Under the pieces are notes generated by a model. That model saw nothing but the letters and a program-made list of their open reading frames with translations, did not search any database and was not told the DNA's origin. A stretch of 64,000 nt of DNA from Desertimonas flava (GTDB lineage: Bacteria; Actinomycetota; Acidimicrobiia; Acidimicrobiales; Ilumatobacteraceae): NCBI RefSeq assembly GCF_003426815.1, contig NZ_QKYK01000008.1, forward strand, positions 62,001 to 126,000. The letters run 5' to 3'. Shown here piece after piece: positions 3,227-49,641 of the stretch (its first letter is position 1; each line of letters begins with the position of its first letter). Position numbers and translations under genes: made by a program.

Positions 3227-3267
3227 CGTCGGTAACAGATGGTGCCAGGCACCATCTGTTACCGACG
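3227..3267. repeat. RGTGCC-N-GGCACY palindrome, subfamily B copy 1
   Basis: The left arm GGTAACAGATGGTGCC and its exact complement flank a single central A at 3247. Pairing extends outward to 3227 and 3267, giving 20-bp arms. It sits between two convergent genes. The near-zero loop and lack of a T-run argue against a standard terminator. Confidence 0.9.
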
Positions 3268-8257: not shown

Positions 8258-8290
8258 GGTAACAGATGGTGCCGGGCACCATCTGTTACC
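8258..8290. repeat. RGTGCC-N-GGCACY palindrome, subfamily B copy 2
   Basis: Same arms as the copy at 3231 (GGTAACAGATGGTGCC and complement) around a central G at 8274: 33 bp, perfect. It lies between convergent genes and supplies the TAA stop (8286-8288) of the DUF1330 gene. Confidence 0.9.
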
Positions 8291-16122: not shown

Positions 16123-16839
16123 GTGACGACGGCCGAGTTCGTCGTCGCCATCCTCGCTGTCGCCGTCGGCGCGCTCGCTCAGGGGTCGATCGGGTTCGGC
16201 TTCGGCACGCTCGCCGCCCCGGTGCTCGCCATCCTCGACGAGGATCTCGTGCCGGGCTCGGTGCTCGTGCTCGGCTTCACGGTCGCCGCGTACGTGGCAT
16301 GGTCGGAGCGGGGCGCACTCGACTGGTTCGGCATACGGTGGGCATTGGTCGGCCGTGTGATCGGCTCCATCGCCGGTGCCTACGCCGTGTCACGACTCTC
16401 GCACAACGCCCTGGCCGTCGTGCTCAGCCTGATCGTGCTCGTCGCCGTGGCGATCAGCGTGTCGGGATGGCACGTCCGGCCATCGCCGTCGACGTTGGTG
16501 AGCGCCGGGGCGCTGTCGGGGGTGATGGGCACGCTCACGTCCGTCGGCGGCCCGCCGATGGCGCTCGTCTACCAGCGCGAGGAGGCAGCCAAGCTGCGCT
16601 CGACGCTCGCCGGGTTCTTCCTGTTCGGCGCCTCGCTCGGCATCTTCACCCTCTTCGTGAGCGGCGAGTTCGGCGGCACGGAGCTCGTCGGCGGGCTGAT
16701 GCTGTTGCCCGGGCTGGTCGGCGGGCTGGTCGTCAGCCGCTTCGCGCACCGCTGGCTCGACCACGGCTGGACACGGCCGACCGTGCTGGCGATGTCGGCC
16801 GCCGCCGCCGTGATCCTCCTCGTCGACGCCGCCACGTAA
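16123..16839 (+). CDS. TauE/SafE-family permease, second copy
   Basis: 238 residues from a GTG preceded by GAGG-like sequence. It has GALAQGSIGFGFGTLAAPVLAI at the N-terminus and GVMGTLTSVGGPPMALVYQ in the second half, the TauE/SafE pattern in a shorter variant. Seven or eight spans are likely. It is diverged from the upstream copy, so it is not a recent duplicate. Its TAA stop (16837-16839) lies inside a palindromic repeat. Confidence 0.87.
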   Translation: MTTAEFVVAILAVAVGALAQGSIGFGFGTLAAPVLAILDEDLVPGSVLVLGFTVAAYVAWSERGALDWFGIRWALVGRVIGSIAGAYAVSRLSHNALAVVLSLIVLVAVAISVSGWHVRPSPSTLVSAGALSGVMGTLTSVGGPPMALVYQREEAAKLRSTLAGFFLFGASLGIFTLFVSGEFGGTELVGGLMLLPGLVGGLVVSRFAHRWLDHGWTRPTVLAMSAAAAVILLVDAAT

Positions 16840-16867
16840 CGGTTGGTGCCTGGCACCAACCGTTACG
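16835..16867. repeat. RGTGCC-N-GGCACY palindrome, subfamily C copy 1
   Basis: Arms CGTAACGGTTGGTGCC and complement around a central T at 16851, 33 bp perfect. It lies between convergent genes and contains the stop codon of the permease gene. Confidence 0.9.
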
Positions 16868-25240: not shown

Positions 25241-25273
25241 TCTGACGGGAGGTGCCTGGCACCTCCCGTCAGA
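25241..25273. repeat. RGTGCC-N-GGCACY palindrome, subfamily D
   Basis: Arms TCTGACGGGAGGTGCC and complement around a central T at 25257, 33 bp perfect. It lies 3' of katG and upstream of the co-directional plsC gene; the only copy with these outer arms in the window. Confidence 0.9.
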
Positions 25274-30050: not shown

Positions 30051-30081
30051 CTCCGAGATAGTGCCAGGCACTATCTCGGAG
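30051..30081. repeat. RGTGCC-N-GGCACY palindrome, subfamily A copy 1
   Basis: Arms CTCCGAGATAGTGCC and complement around a central A at 30066. It lies between the 5' ends of divergent genes (F420 reductase and enoyl reductase), a position where a terminator would make no sense. Confidence 0.9.
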
Positions 30082-35811: not shown

Positions 35812-36797
35812 GCCGCGCCTCCGACGAGCTGCTGGAACAGTCGTGGCGCGGCCTTGACCGGCGACGGGAACGGTCGCCCGCCACCGGCGGCTCGCACCCG
35901 CTCCAGCACCAGCGCGCCGACAGCCACGTCAGCCAGGCCCGAGCCCATCGCCTTGAACACCGACACGCCGGCCGGCCGGGCGGCGCCGCTCGCGACGACG
36001 GCCGACAGCGGCACGACGTCGTCGGCGAAATCGAGCTCGGCCGACAGCGTGGTGGCGGCCGCCGGGCTGTCGGACACGACGAGCGACGCCACCTTCACCA
36101 CCGACGGGGCGAGCTCACGCCGTTCCGGGGTGATCGCGCCGATGGCGTTGACGTGGGCGTCGGCGATGAGCACCGAGTTGTCGAGTACCGCGTCGGTGGC
36201 CCGCGTGGCGGTCGTGACGACGCCGGCGCCGTCGGCGGCCTCGGCGACCGAGCGGCAGTCCACGACGTGCACGCCGGGCAGGCGTTCGGCGACGGTGTGG
36301 CAGAAGCGCTGGCGGTTCTCGGCCGTGGGGCTGAACGCGCGCACCTCGCGGAGCGGCCGCACCGCGGCGACGGCGGCCACCTGGGCCAGGGCCTGCTTGC
36401 CGGTCCCGACGATGGCCAGCACGTCGGCCGACGGCGGGGCCATGGCGTCGGTGGCGACGGCGGACACCGACGCCGTGCGCAACTGGCCGAGGGCGAAGGC
36501 CTCGACGACGGCGAGCAGCGTGCCGGCCGCGGAATCCCAGAGCACGAGCAGCGGGGACGCCCCGCCCGGGGTGTGGGCCCACGTCTTGGTGCCGGTGATG
36601 CCACCGGTCACGCCGCCGAGCGCGTGCAGGGTGGCCTCTCCCCCGCCGGCCGCACCGTCGACGCCGTACGTGACGGCCGTCTTCTCCAGCGTCACGGCTT
36701 CGGGTGCGGCGAACGCCGCGTGCACGGCGGCGCGGGTGTCGGTGAGATCGACCGCGGCAGCGACGTCGGCCTCGGTGATCCAGAGAGGATCGCTCAT
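35808..36797 (-). CDS. Ornithine cyclodeaminase/mu-crystallin family dehydrogenase
   Basis: 329 residues. The Rossmann motif is VLAIVGTGKQALAQVAAVAAVRPLREV; TYGVDGAAGGGEATLHALGG and HVNAIGAITPERRELAP are typical family segments. It is only distantly similar to the OCD protein at 4452. In this operon it may reduce an imine or oxidise an amino or hydroxy acid released from the aromatic substrate. ATGA overlaps at both ends indicate fixed stoichiometry with the neighbours. Confidence 0.83.
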   Translation of the reverse strand: MSDPLWITEADVAAAVDLTDTRAAVHAAFAAPEAVTLEKTAVTYGVDGAAGGGEATLHALGGVTGGITGTKTWAHTPGGASPLLVLWDSAAGTLLAVVEAFALGQLRTASVSAVATDAMAPPSADVLAIVGTGKQALAQVAAVAAVRPLREVRAFSPTAENRQRFCHTVAERLPGVHVVDCRSVAEAADGAGVVTTATRATDAVLDNSVLIADAHVNAIGAITPERRELAPSVVKVASLVVSDSPAAATTLSAELDFADDVVPLSAVVASGAARPAGVSVFKAMGSGLADVAVGALVLERVRAAGGGRPFPSPVKAAPRLFQQLVGGAA

Positions 36798-37393
36798 CGT
36801 TGGGAGACTCCTTCGTCAGCGAAGATCGACGGGACGGGTGGCTGCAGGCGGCAGGCGGCCGAGACGACGGCGTGGGCGACGAAGCGGCCGGTGAGCAGGG
36901 CGACGCCGGATGCGGTGGCGTCGTCGGACGCGGCAACGAGCGCGTCGAGGGCTTCGGCCGCGAGGTCCTGCGGTCCCGAGATAGTGCCAGGCACTATCTC
37001 GGGAGCACCCCGTAGCGCGTCGCAGGCGGCGAGCACGAAGCGCTGTGTGGCGACGACCACCGGCGGGGCGTCGAGCGTCTCGGGGTCGAGGCGTTCGATC
37101 GCCGCCACCCACTCGGCGCCGAGGCCGAGGGCGACGGCGAGCCGTTCGTGCTGGTGCCGCTCGTAGGTGTTGTCGAGACGCGTGGCGGCGGTGAGGGCCA
37201 CCGTCTCGGCCAGCTCGGGGCCGAGCGACCGCTTCAGCGACTCCGTGAAGGCATCGAAGTGGACGAGCGCCTCGGGCTGGTGCGCCATGTGGGTGAAGAA
37301 GCCGCCCAGATACCCGAGGCGCTCGTACCGGGCCCGCAGCGCGTCCTGGAGGGGCTCGGCCAGGTCGTCGAAGGCGATCGGTGTGATGGTCAC
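36794..37393 (-). CDS. Carboxymuconolactone-decarboxylase-like protein carrying a palindromic insert
   Basis: 199 residues from a GTG at 37393. It resembles the AhpD/CMD-like helical family: YERLGYLGGFFTHMAHQPEALVHFDAFTESLKRSLGPELAETVALTAATRLDNTYERHQHERLAVALG. No CxxC pair is present, so peroxidase activity is unlikely. The segment APEIVPGTISGPQ near residue 135 is encoded by a 31-bp subfamily A palindrome inside the gene. The frame stays open and the downstream helices continue normally, so the protein is probably still made. It overlaps the OCD gene and the beta-subunit gene. Confidence 0.78.
   Translation of the reverse strand: MTITPIAFDDLAEPLQDALRARYERLGYLGGFFTHMAHQPEALVHFDAFTESLKRSLGPELAETVALTAATRLDNTYERHQHERLAVALGLGAEWVAAIERLDPETLDAPPVVVATQRFVLAACDALRGAPEIVPGTISGPQDLAAEALDALVAASDDATASGVALLTGRFVAHAVVSAACRLQPPVPSIFADEGVSQR
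36974..37004. repeat. RGTGCC-N-GGCACY palindrome, subfamily A copy 2, inside a gene
   Basis: Arms TCCCGAGATAGTGCC and complement around the central base at 36989. It lies wholly within the CMD-like coding sequence and adds EIVPGTIS in frame. Confidence 0.92.
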
Positions 37394-39201: not shown

Positions 39202-39239
39202 ACGGTTGGTGCCCGGCACCAACCGTTACCAACCGTGAG
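39202..39239. repeat. RGTGCC-N-GGCACY palindrome, subfamily C copy 2, with an extra arm
   Basis: ACGGTTGGTGCC and its complement surround a central C at 39214 (39202-39226). A second right arm ACCAACCGTGAG follows at 39228-39239 and complements CTCACGGTTGGT on the left. Two alternative hairpins can form, suggesting a rearranged or partly duplicated copy. Confidence 0.85.
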
Positions 39240-44481: not shown

Positions 44482-44512
44482 GCCCGAGATAGTGCCAGGC
44501 ACTATCTCGGGC
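44482..44512. repeat. RGTGCC-N-GGCACY palindrome, subfamily A copy 3, left of the RAYT
   Basis: Arms GCCCGAGATAGTGCC and complement around a central A at 44497. It lies 28 bp before the transposase start and with the copy at 45355 brackets the gene. Confidence 0.93.
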
Positions 44513-44540
44513 CGTCACACCCCATCGTCATGATGGCGGC

Positions 44541-45395
44541 ATGCCCCGTCCACCTCGCCTCGACGCGGCCGGCGTGTACCACGTGATGAACCGGGGAGCC
44601 GCCCGCCAGACCATCTTCAACACCAGGAACGACGGCCACCGCTTCCTCGCCCTCGTCGACCAGGCCTCCGAGCGGTTCGAGGTGAGCGTCCTCGCCTACT
44701 GCCTGATGACGAACCACTACCACTTGCTGCTCCGCGTCCCCGACGGCGTGCTCTCGGCGTTCATGCACCTCGTCGGGTCTCGGTACACGCGGCACTTCAA
44801 CGACGCCGTCGGACGAGACGGACCCCTACTCCGGGCTCGCTTCCACTCGCTCCACGTGGACTCCGAGGAGTACATGATTTGCGCCGGGCGGTACATCCAT
44901 CGCAACCCCCTCGACATCCGTCCCCAAGTCGCGCTCGACACGTATCGCTGGTCGAGCTACCAGCAGTACGTCGGGCGGGCCCTGCCACCGCGCTGGCTGT
45001 CGACCAGCGAGTTGCTGGCAGCTACCAGCGGCAGCCGGCCTGAGTATCGAAGACTGGTCGAGGGCGACGCCGGTGCGACGCCGTCGATCGGCTGGGCGAT
45101 TGACGTGGCCATGATGGAATGCGGCGACGCCCCGTTCATCGCTCGCCCCCACGCCCGCCGCACGCTGCAGGTCGCGATGCTGGCCCTGGCGTCCGGTGCG
45201 CTGCAGGCGCAGCTCGAGCAGGAGTTGGCCTTCGCCCGCCCCGACGTCCGCGAGGCTGCGGTCGAACGGGTCCTGCGTCGCATCGAGTCAGAGCCGGATC
45301 TGGCAGTCGTCGCCGAACGAGCCCGCACCCTCGCCAGTGTCGGGCAGGCGGCTTCCGAGATAGTGCCTGGCACTATCTCGGCAGCGCTCCACTAG
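44541..45395 (+). CDS. REP-associated tyrosine transposase (Y1_Tnp family)
   Basis: 284 residues. N-terminal PRLDAAGVYHVMNRGAARQTIF is the RAYT opening; the HUH metal motif is CLMTNHYHLLLRV (His59 and His61), and the catalytic Tyr118 lies in CAGRYIHRNPLDI. The domain nicks and rejoins single-stranded DNA at hairpins. A C-terminal region of ~130 residues follows. The last residues EIVPGTISAALH are encoded by the right-hand palindrome, so the element ends inside the gene. It is probably the enzyme that moved the subfamily A repeats in this window; the other subfamilies may need other RAYTs. Confidence 0.92.
   Translation: MPRPPRLDAAGVYHVMNRGAARQTIFNTRNDGHRFLALVDQASERFEVSVLAYCLMTNHYHLLLRVPDGVLSAFMHLVGSRYTRHFNDAVGRDGPLLRARFHSLHVDSEEYMICAGRYIHRNPLDIRPQVALDTYRWSSYQQYVGRALPPRWLSTSELLAATSGSRPEYRRLVEGDAGATPSIGWAIDVAMMECGDAPFIARPHARRTLQVAMLALASGALQAQLEQELAFARPDVREAAVERVLRRIESEPDLAVVAERARTLASVGQAASEIVPGTISAALH
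45355..45381. repeat. RGTGCC-N-GGCACY palindrome, subfamily A copy 4, in the RAYT 3' end
   Basis: Arms CCGAGATAGTGCC and complement around a central T at 45368, 27 bp. It encodes EIVPGTIS near the RAYT C-terminus; the stop codon lies 12 bp beyond. Confidence 0.93.
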
Positions 45396-48927: not shown

Positions 48928-49641
48928 TCAGCTTCCTTCGCCCGCGCCGCCTCCCGAGATAGTGCCTGGCACTATCTCGGGGCTTACGTCGATGCGGTAG
49001 CCGACGCCCGGCACGGTGGCGATCAGCCAGGGCTCGCCGAGCCGCTTGCGCAGCGCCGACACGGTGATGCGCACGGCGTTGGTGAACGGGTCGGCGTTCT
49101 CGTCCCACCCACGCTCGAGCAACTCCTCGGCGCTGACCACGCCGCCCTCGGCTTCGACCAGCACCTCGAGCACGGCGAACTGCTTGCGTGTGAGGGCGAC
49201 GTAGCGGCCGTCCCGGTACACCTCGCGGCGGAACGGATCGACGCGCAGGCCGGCGATCTCCCGCACCGGCGGACGGCGGTGGGCGCGGCGACGATCGAGG
49301 GCGCGGAGGCGCAGTACGAGCTCGCGCAGCTCGAACGGCTTGGTGAGGTAGTCGTCGGCGCCGAGCTCGAAGCCCGACACCTTGTCGTCGAGCCGGTCGG
49401 CAGCGGTGAGCATGAGGATCGGGATGCCGCTCCCCGAGGCGACGATGTGCTGGGCGATCTCATCTCCCGACGGCCCGGGAACGTCGCGGTCGAGCACGGC
49501 GATGTCGTACGCGTTGACGTCGAGCAACCCGAGCGCGGCGTCGCCGTCGCCGGCGATGTCGGCGGCGATCGCCTCGAGGCGCAGACCGTCGCGGACCGCT
49601 TCGGCCAGCAACGGCTCGTCCTCGACAATCAACACACGCAT
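48928..49641 (-). CDS. vanR: VanR-like OmpR-family response regulator with palindrome-derived tail
   Basis: 237 residues. Receiver domain MRVLIVEDEPLLAEAVRDGL with phospho-Asp in IAVLDRDVPG and Lys in YLTKPFELRELVLRLRAL. The OmpR winged helix ends RKQFAVLEVLVEAEGGVVSAEELLERGWDENADPFTNAVRITVSALRKRLGEPWLIATVPGVGYRID. The normal family end is here; the extra VSPEIVPGTISGGGAGEGS is encoded by a subfamily A palindrome and the sequence after it. It is divergent from vanHAX, which it should activate. Confidence 0.88.
   Translation of the reverse strand: MRVLIVEDEPLLAEAVRDGLRLEAIAADIAGDGDAALGLLDVNAYDIAVLDRDVPGPSGDEIAQHIVASGSGIPILMLTAADRLDDKVSGFELGADDYLTKPFELRELVLRLRALDRRRAHRRPPVREIAGLRVDPFRREVYRDGRYVALTRKQFAVLEVLVEAEGGVVSAEELLERGWDENADPFTNAVRITVSALRKRLGEPWLIATVPGVGYRIDVSPEIVPGTISGGGAGEGS
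48953..48981. repeat. RGTGCC-N-GGCACY palindrome, subfamily A copy 5, in the vanR 3' end
   Basis: Arms CCCGAGATAGTGCC and complement around a central T at 48967, 29 bp. It lies between the conserved vanR domain and its stop, 28 bp before the vanS start. Confidence 0.93.

Follow-up and report, generated by a model that had tools for sequence, protein, structure and literature searches.

The genome of Desertimonas flava contains three families of short dispersed hairpins, two of which, families A and B, are probably REP-like non-autonomous elements served by single-copy Y1 transposases of the TIRYT type. One of these transposases, RAYT1, is encoded in the window, the stretch of 64,000 nucleotides analysed here, which forms part of contig C72; the other, RAYT2, is encoded at the edge of contig C8. 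The assembly comprises 6.22 Mb in 73 contigs and is 96.6% complete. The argument draws on the families and the near identity of their copies, the complementarity of the hairpin arms, their position relative to genes, the pairing, seen in three genomes, of hairpins and transposase genes, a copy restricted to one lineage at a conserved junction, and intact catalytic-type residues, all of which are observed.

Ten odd palindromes of the form RGTGCC-N-GGCACY had been described in the window in an initial annotation, and all ten are present where it placed them, each position marking the first base of a perfect arm. The arms are perfect over 12-20 bp, and reading the ten copies bears out the claim that the centre base varies between A, G, T and C. 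Shuffled versions of the window hold 0.03 such sites on average and at most 1 (100 shuffles). Five copies belong to family A, two to family B and three to family C. Two of the family A copies accompany the transposase gene: one lies upstream of it (44482-44512, minus strand), with an arm of 15 and centre base A on the strand of the gene, and the other lies inside the frame just before the stop codon (45355-45381, plus strand), with an arm of 13 and centre base T. A third lies between two divergent genes (30051-30081, minus strand), a fourth inside a predicted frame with no Pfam match (36974-37004, minus strand) and a fifth at 48953-48981 (plus strand). Both family B copies (3227-3267 and 8258-8290, minus strand) and one family C copy (16835-16867, plus strand) occupy convergent junctions. 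The remaining two are a C-like palindrome with a divergent arm sequence (25241-25273, plus strand) and a family C copy followed by a further partial arm (39202-39226, plus strand). The frame that surrounds the fourth A copy (36794-37393, minus strand) is perhaps a gene that was hit, or perhaps a false frame.

The palindrome search of the whole genome that had been proposed alongside the ten copies returned 145 places, as against 5 for a reversed-pattern control. The earlier estimate of about one copy per 6 kb is thus true of the window, whereas the genome-wide mean is about one per 43 kb. The window makes up 1% of the genome yet holds 10 of the 145 copies, and families A, B and C are all dense at contig positions 65-111 kb. 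Local hopping around RAYT1 was considered as a source of the three extra A copies within 15 kb of the gene (Poisson p 0.0015), but the distance was chosen post hoc in a stretch dense in all three families, and the figure is suggestive only.

Of the 145 copies, 135 were read with their flanks, the other ten being absent from the two T-centred searches. Sorting by nearest consensus assigned 51 of them to family A (CCGAGATAGTGCC-T-GGCACTATCTCGG), 36 to family B (GTAACAGATGGTGCC-T-GGCACCATCTGTTAC) and 48 to family C, which groups more loosely around CGTTACGGTTGGTGCC-T-GGCACCAACCGTAACG. Copies vary little within A and B, with 46 of the 51 A copies exact over 27 nt and 28 of the 36 B copies exact over 31 nt; four of the copies sorted to A fit poorly, with 4 to 7 differences. 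Family C is diverse, and only 19 of its 48 copies are exact to one of six variants. In the stretches read, an exact A arm always belongs to a whole palindrome (93 of 93), as does an exact B arm in 63 of 65 cases; these stretches were chosen around palindromes, however, and isolated halves elsewhere could be missed. Among 130 T- or A-centred places in this genome only two pairs lie within 300 bp of each other, both in direct orientation. At one locus (L028:2062 and 2092) two A copies lie 30 bp apart as a direct repeat and share bases where they meet, which may represent an intermediate or the product of slippage. At another (L055:2080-2120) a whole B copy directly follows a degenerate left half of A that runs up to its centre, and at a third (L079:2050-2360) a unit of about 234 bp is duplicated in tandem, each unit carrying a family C palindrome, with a truncated third arm between them.

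Copies are concentrated behind genes. According to a simple gene caller of our own, run on the stretches read (about 92% coding), 62 of the 135 copies lie in convergent spacers, 54 in tandem and 8 in divergent junctions, and 11 in or over a predicted frame, while convergent spacers account for 7.7 of the 47.1 kb of intergenic DNA in these stretches. A stop codon is found no more than 40 nt from the centre in 96 of the 135 copies; 28% of the intergenic bases of these stretches are as close. Whether the centre base (T or A) keeps a fixed orientation to transcription was also examined, and the idea was set aside, as the split in tandem junctions is 31 to 22, with no clear bias. When four single copies were folded as single-stranded DNA they gave near-perfect hairpins (z -7.6 to -9.9).

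Stable stems concentrated in convergent spacers and close behind stop codons are what would be expected if the hairpins were host parts, either transcription terminators or stabilisers of mRNA 3' ends, with only an incidental link to a transposase. This explanation is nevertheless improbable. A run of T follows the hairpin in none of 270 strand tails, although control positions in this GC-rich genome have one in only 1 of 270. Nor does a convergent spacer usually need a hairpin, for a stem of at least 8 bp is found in only 4 of 33 convergent spacers without a copy (one of these being a core-like GTGCCGGGCAC hairpin) and in 1 of 33 when shuffled. A role as host parts would also leave unexplained the identity of dozens of copies, their restriction to a lineage and the pairing of families with transposases. 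Later use of the hairpins by the host may still have followed their spread. One convergent spacer without a copy (L033, from about 4620) holds an unrelated perfect stem of 23 bp, perhaps a single-copy terminator or a member of another hairpin family.

RAYT1 (44541-45395, plus strand) is a protein of 284 aa that belongs to the Y1 transposase superfamily, PF01797. It scores 40.7 bits against that profile (Pfam gathering score 23) and has both the HUH motif, as HYH at residues 59-61, and a single catalytic-type tyrosine, Y118, within RYIHRNP. H59, H61 and Y118 are invariant in an alignment of 14 sequences, and both transposase genes of the genome keep the invariant residues. The best NCBIfam family is NF047646 (REP-associated tyrosine transposase), which all 14 homologues scanned match (E up to 0.001), RAYT1 itself scoring 52 bits, below the curated cut-off of 80. 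The sole sequence match in a profile search of the PDB is the REP transposase of E. coli, 4er8 (E 0.006). The predicted model has a mean pLDDT of 83.6, with high confidence in the catalytic core and lower confidence in the helical C-terminal part; its best fold match is again 4er8, in which the E. coli enzyme is bound to a REP hairpin, followed by the IS608 and ISDra2 transposases.

The gene thus lies between the A copies at 44482-44512 and 45355-45381, in agreement with the original description of a Y1-type RAYT flanked by two subfamily A palindromes. The assembly contains exactly two PF01797 matches (E up to 0.001), RAYT1 and RAYT2, each in single copy; they are 52% identical and are sisters in the tree (support 100/99). 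RAYT2 has a full family B palindrome just past its stop codon and a B right arm ahead of its start. The inverted repeats at the gene ends, of 27 nt for RAYT1 and 17 nt for RAYT2, agree with the flank arrangement of TIRYTs and TIRtrons. Between palindrome and start codon both genes share a box, GTCACACCCCATCGTCA (44514-44530, plus strand; L017:124-140 for RAYT2), of which looser versions occur in some relatives; it is promoter-like by position, possibly belonging to a nearly leaderless mRNA. No transposase for family C was found in this assembly, and family C resembles the second hairpin type of a relative, G053. Mobilisation of the window's palindromes by RAYT1, as first proposed for the subfamily A copies, would therefore apply to the five A copies at most, while two of the ten match the second transposase and three belong to the family with no transposase in the assembly.

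The pairing of one hairpin family with one transposase recurs in other genomes. G053 has two RAYT-like genes, each with its own hairpins, the outer stem being GTTACC/GGTAAC in one and CGTAACGG...GGTGCC in the other; the 19 copies read there comprise 13 hairpins of the first type, 5 of the second, of which 2 adjoin the gene, and 1 that fits neither. In G066, which has a single homologue with the hairpin tip CGTGCCTGGCAC, there are 44 places as against 0 in the reversed-pattern control, and 29 of 30 distinct copies that were read agree on both sides with the 15-nt arm of this hairpin, to within 3 differences. This agreement raises confidence in the proposed link between hairpins and transposases. 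An apparent mismatch in G066, where only 2 of 13 copies resembled the gene's own hairpin, was discarded once it was seen that the pattern demanded R before GTGCC where the hairpin has C, the right pattern giving the 44 places. A single fixed tip pattern thus undercounts such families. The G066 hairpins are clustered, 31 of the 44 lying on contigs C138, C169 and C75 (L375-L379, L390-L401), one of which bears the transposase gene, and some lie about 30 bp apart as inverted or direct pairs.

Across 120 genomes compared for copies of RGTGCCTGGCACY, a set that includes the genome itself and is drawn from outside its genus in all other cases, a RAYT1 homologue is present in 6 of the 7 with at least 9 copies and in 9 of the remaining 113 (Fisher p 9e-6, with the threshold of 9 set after the counts were seen). 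Equal frequency of the palindromes in genomes lacking RAYTs, which had been named at the outset as evidence against the link, is thus not what is found overall; the exception is G074, which has 9 copies and no PF01797 match. Two further genomes, G015 and G016, have 34 copies each, and the homologue is only 132 aa long in the former and broken in the latter. Palindromes with no detectable transposase, namely family C, those of G074 and those of G015 and G016 with their short or broken genes, count against the preferred explanation. At 10 of 24 homologue loci (of 26, two short fragments being left out) the gene has, within 80 bp, a perfect palindrome of odd length whose arms measure 9 or more, and the arms differ from gene to gene. 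G015 also has seven inverted hairpin pairs 32-62 bp apart, in which the first centre base is A and the second is T in six and G in one (L239, L240, L242, L243, L245, L251, L254); they resemble REPINs, or transposase elements with an internal deletion. Folded as single-stranded DNA, one such pair is less striking than the single copies (z -3.6).

Such observations raise the question of whether the hairpins are relics, spread by an ancestral transposase whose present descendants have been domesticated and have ceased to move them. In favour of this, neither transposase gene occurs more than once, and family C and several relatives have copies with no intact transposase. The near uniformity of families A and B points instead to recent spread, however, and both genes keep the residues that are invariant in the alignment; a relic state is improbable.

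Changes in the arms come in pairs, such that complementarity is kept while the sequence shifts. It is very improbable that the palindromes are bound as double-stranded DNA by a nucleoid protein or a dimeric regulator and border transposase genes by chance: the sites are almost perfectly symmetric save for one centre base, but a dimer site would conserve sequence rather than pairing, whereas the arms here differ strongly across families with self-complementarity kept and, within a family, change in matching pairs, copies lie behind genes more than before them, and the unpaired internal stretches found in many stems of G015 and G053 fit hairpins.

In the mechanism proposed for families A and B, a single-stranded copy would fold back on itself to form a hairpin whose tip is the conserved GTGCC-W-GGCAC, and the cognate transposase would recognise this tip together with the family-specific arm. 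The single-stranded DNA would then be cut and rejoined via Y118, and the copy would land at a new site. Copies would persist mainly just behind stop codons because dense coding sequence would be intolerant of them, and the palindromes beside each transposase gene would be its own terminal repeats. We infer binding, cutting and mobility, as well as the reason for the location at gene ends, from the arrangement of the copies and genes.

Lineage-specific presence is seen for the A copy at 30051-30081, which is adjoined by an F420-dependent oxidoreductase-domain gene and a FabI-like gene. An empty orthologous site had been called for as evidence of insertion, and the junction between this divergent pair is empty in 26 of 26 relatives. 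These are drawn from the best 30 of 44 places, the genome itself and three in which the pair is otherwise arranged or a neighbour is missing having been left out. The core is present in none of the 26; odd palindromes there have arms of at most 4 in 25, and the remaining relative, with a far longer spacer, shows an unrelated arm of 7. The copy is therefore lineage-specific at the resolution of the gene junction rather than of the base, since the relatives include no genome of the same genus. Behind ilvE, where this genome has a family B copy, neither the core nor an odd palindrome with an arm above 8 was found in 29 relatives (best 30 places, with L366 at a contig end), but the neighbouring gene is conserved in none of them, so the absence is only partly informative. 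Synteny is likewise not conserved around RAYT1, the 2-hydroxyacid dehydrogenase gene standing beside the DUF4012 gene in 0 of 29 other loci.

The constant arms do not account for the whole stem. In A and B the positions beyond the constant arms vary, with no conserved foot resembling GTAG, yet they tend to pair. Family A has 2.66 extra contiguous flank pairs beyond the constant arm, as against 0.84 when flanks are exchanged between copies; the corresponding figures are 2.39 and 1.06 for family B and 1.23 and 0.62 for family C (permutation p <=0.0004 in each). Copies with three or more such pairs show 9 different foot triplets in A, 9 in B and 6 in C. The second foot pair, taken within classes of the first, is still significant in A and B and not in C.

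The foot pairing could in part derive from inherited sub-families. Insertion into existing terminator hairpins was rejected as a general source, because convergent spacers without a copy seldom have stems (4 of 33 with a stem of at least 8 bp). A tentative suggestion, rather unlikely but worth naming, is that the foot pairs reflect the chemistry of insertion, the target being picked by pairing with nucleotides at the foot of the hairpin, or one flank being copied by fold-back. If this were true, it would constitute a step of site choice or repair with no counterpart met in the REP and IS200-type literature surveyed. Other candidate sources are selection for stem length and template-switch correction of quasi-palindromes.

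Perfect palindromes at the gene flanks are not a trait of the wider transposase group, a possibility that was abandoned when only 4 of the best 80 of 557 confirmed places in named genomes proved to have them (arms of at least 10, loop 0-5). Their rarity there and the lack of a conserved GTAG-like foot in A and B are also counted against the proposed explanation. Instead, a repeat of at least 12 nt shared from flank to flank is found in 74 of the 101 homologues with enough flank (of 104), as opposed to 2 of 91 comparisons in the control. The 74 include a few frames that are short or broken (L147, L163). The longest shared repeat is inverted in 65 of the 74, and 48 have GGTCA or TGACC within a shared repeat, for example as GGGGTCAGGTCT, GGGGTCAAATCT or GGGGTCAGACCCC. 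In the present genome the palindromic tip stands at the place of this terminal inverted repeat (TIR) motif of the homologues. A tree was built from the 95 of 104 proteins that passed a length filter, none of them named by subclass, and 11 of the 12 that have a perfect palindrome of odd length (arms 11 or longer) fall in a single clade of 29, with support 96/97, which consists largely of relatives and of Acidimicrobiales metagenome genomes.

Acidimicrobia stand outside the Actinobacteridae in the older taxonomy. A 2018 survey in BMC Genomics (PMC6006769), the available text of which reports only subclass 1.1 (IS200-type genes) in the Actinobacteridae, therefore has no direct bearing on the present host in that respect. 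In the same text, subclass 2.1 of TnpAY1 is said probably to correspond to TIRYT. RAYT1 shares with that subclass, as there described, a long Y1 protein, an NH[YF]H motif (here NHYH) and a motif of the Y[IV]HLNP type (here YIHRNP). Subclass 2.1 is also characterised there by a C-terminal HTH (Bac_DnaA_C, HTH_23 or HTH_28); a weak Bac_DnaA_C match is seen in 3 of 14 homologues (E up to 0.05, best 0.0009), and RAYT1 has no Pfam HTH match. The available part of the survey reports no REP-like sequences for subclasses 2.1 and 2.3, in contrast to the many perfect hairpins that accompany such proteins here.

TIRYTs and TIRtrons were named by Di Nocera et al. (2013; PMC3733652), in the available text of which they are RAYT-like tyrosine transposases flanked by long inverted repeats that lack GTAG. 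Some of these TIRs are described there as wholly or partly self-complementary and as forming moderate repeat families, and S. maltophilia is given as a case of a genome whose two TIRYT genes have two TIR families; the terms 'actinobacteria' and 'actinomycet-' do not occur in the main text. The motif GGGGWSAS reported there for some TIRs, not all, differs from the tip RGTGCC-W-GGCACY found here, and the flank motif GGGGTC-A-GACCCC of TIRYT / subclass 2.1 proteins occupies the place that RGTGCC-A-GGCACY has here. The TIR of RAYT1 reads AGTGCCAG rather than GGGGWSAS, and GGGGTCAG or GGTGTCAG takes its place in some relatives of its clade. Unlike the families in the available text of that paper, perfect hairpins of the present kind reach 145 places in one genome.

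With canonical REP/RAYT systems, REPtrons and REPINs, as far as the available texts describe them (PMC2817692; NAR 2021, PMC8266576), the present system shares dispersed intergenic hairpins, a transposase flanked by its own family and one family per transposase. High copy number and mostly extragenic position agree with canonical REPs as well. It differs from these in lacking a GT(A/G)G (or CGTC) foot and in having a perfect stem of 12-20 bp with a three-base tip. REPINs are mobile as inverted pairs, whereas copies in this genome are nearly all single. The Y1 fold is shared with IS200/IS605 elements (IS608, ISDra2; Foldseek E about 1e-4), which likewise have hairpins at their ends, but here there is one copy of each transposase gene, and it is the hairpins that are dispersed and not a whole element. 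The REP/RAYT label first given to the locus is thus apt in that a RAYT-like gene has its own palindrome family, but less so in that the GTAG foot is missing and the protein resembles those of TIRYTs and subclass 2.1. What is seen resembles REP-like amplification linked to a TIRYT-type transposase, rather than a canonical GTAG RAYT. The available text of Nunvar (2010; PMC2817692) places REP-linked RAYTs only in gammaproteobacteria, and a study of palindromes across bacteria and archaea (PMC12306157) includes Acidimicrobium in a table, with neither RAYT nor transposase mentioned in its main text as available. Among the matches listed in searches of the open-access literature there is no description of the present family or of an actinobacterial family of this form, in keeping with the initial suggestion that such a family may not have been described.

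REP/RAYT systems are a rare case in which a transposase is seemingly kept by its host to handle short hairpins, and the literature surveyed on them is concerned mostly with Proteobacteria and with the GTAG type. The genome of D. flava offers two transposases together with two clean, near-uniform and distinguishable hairpin families of a little-studied type that lacks GTAG.
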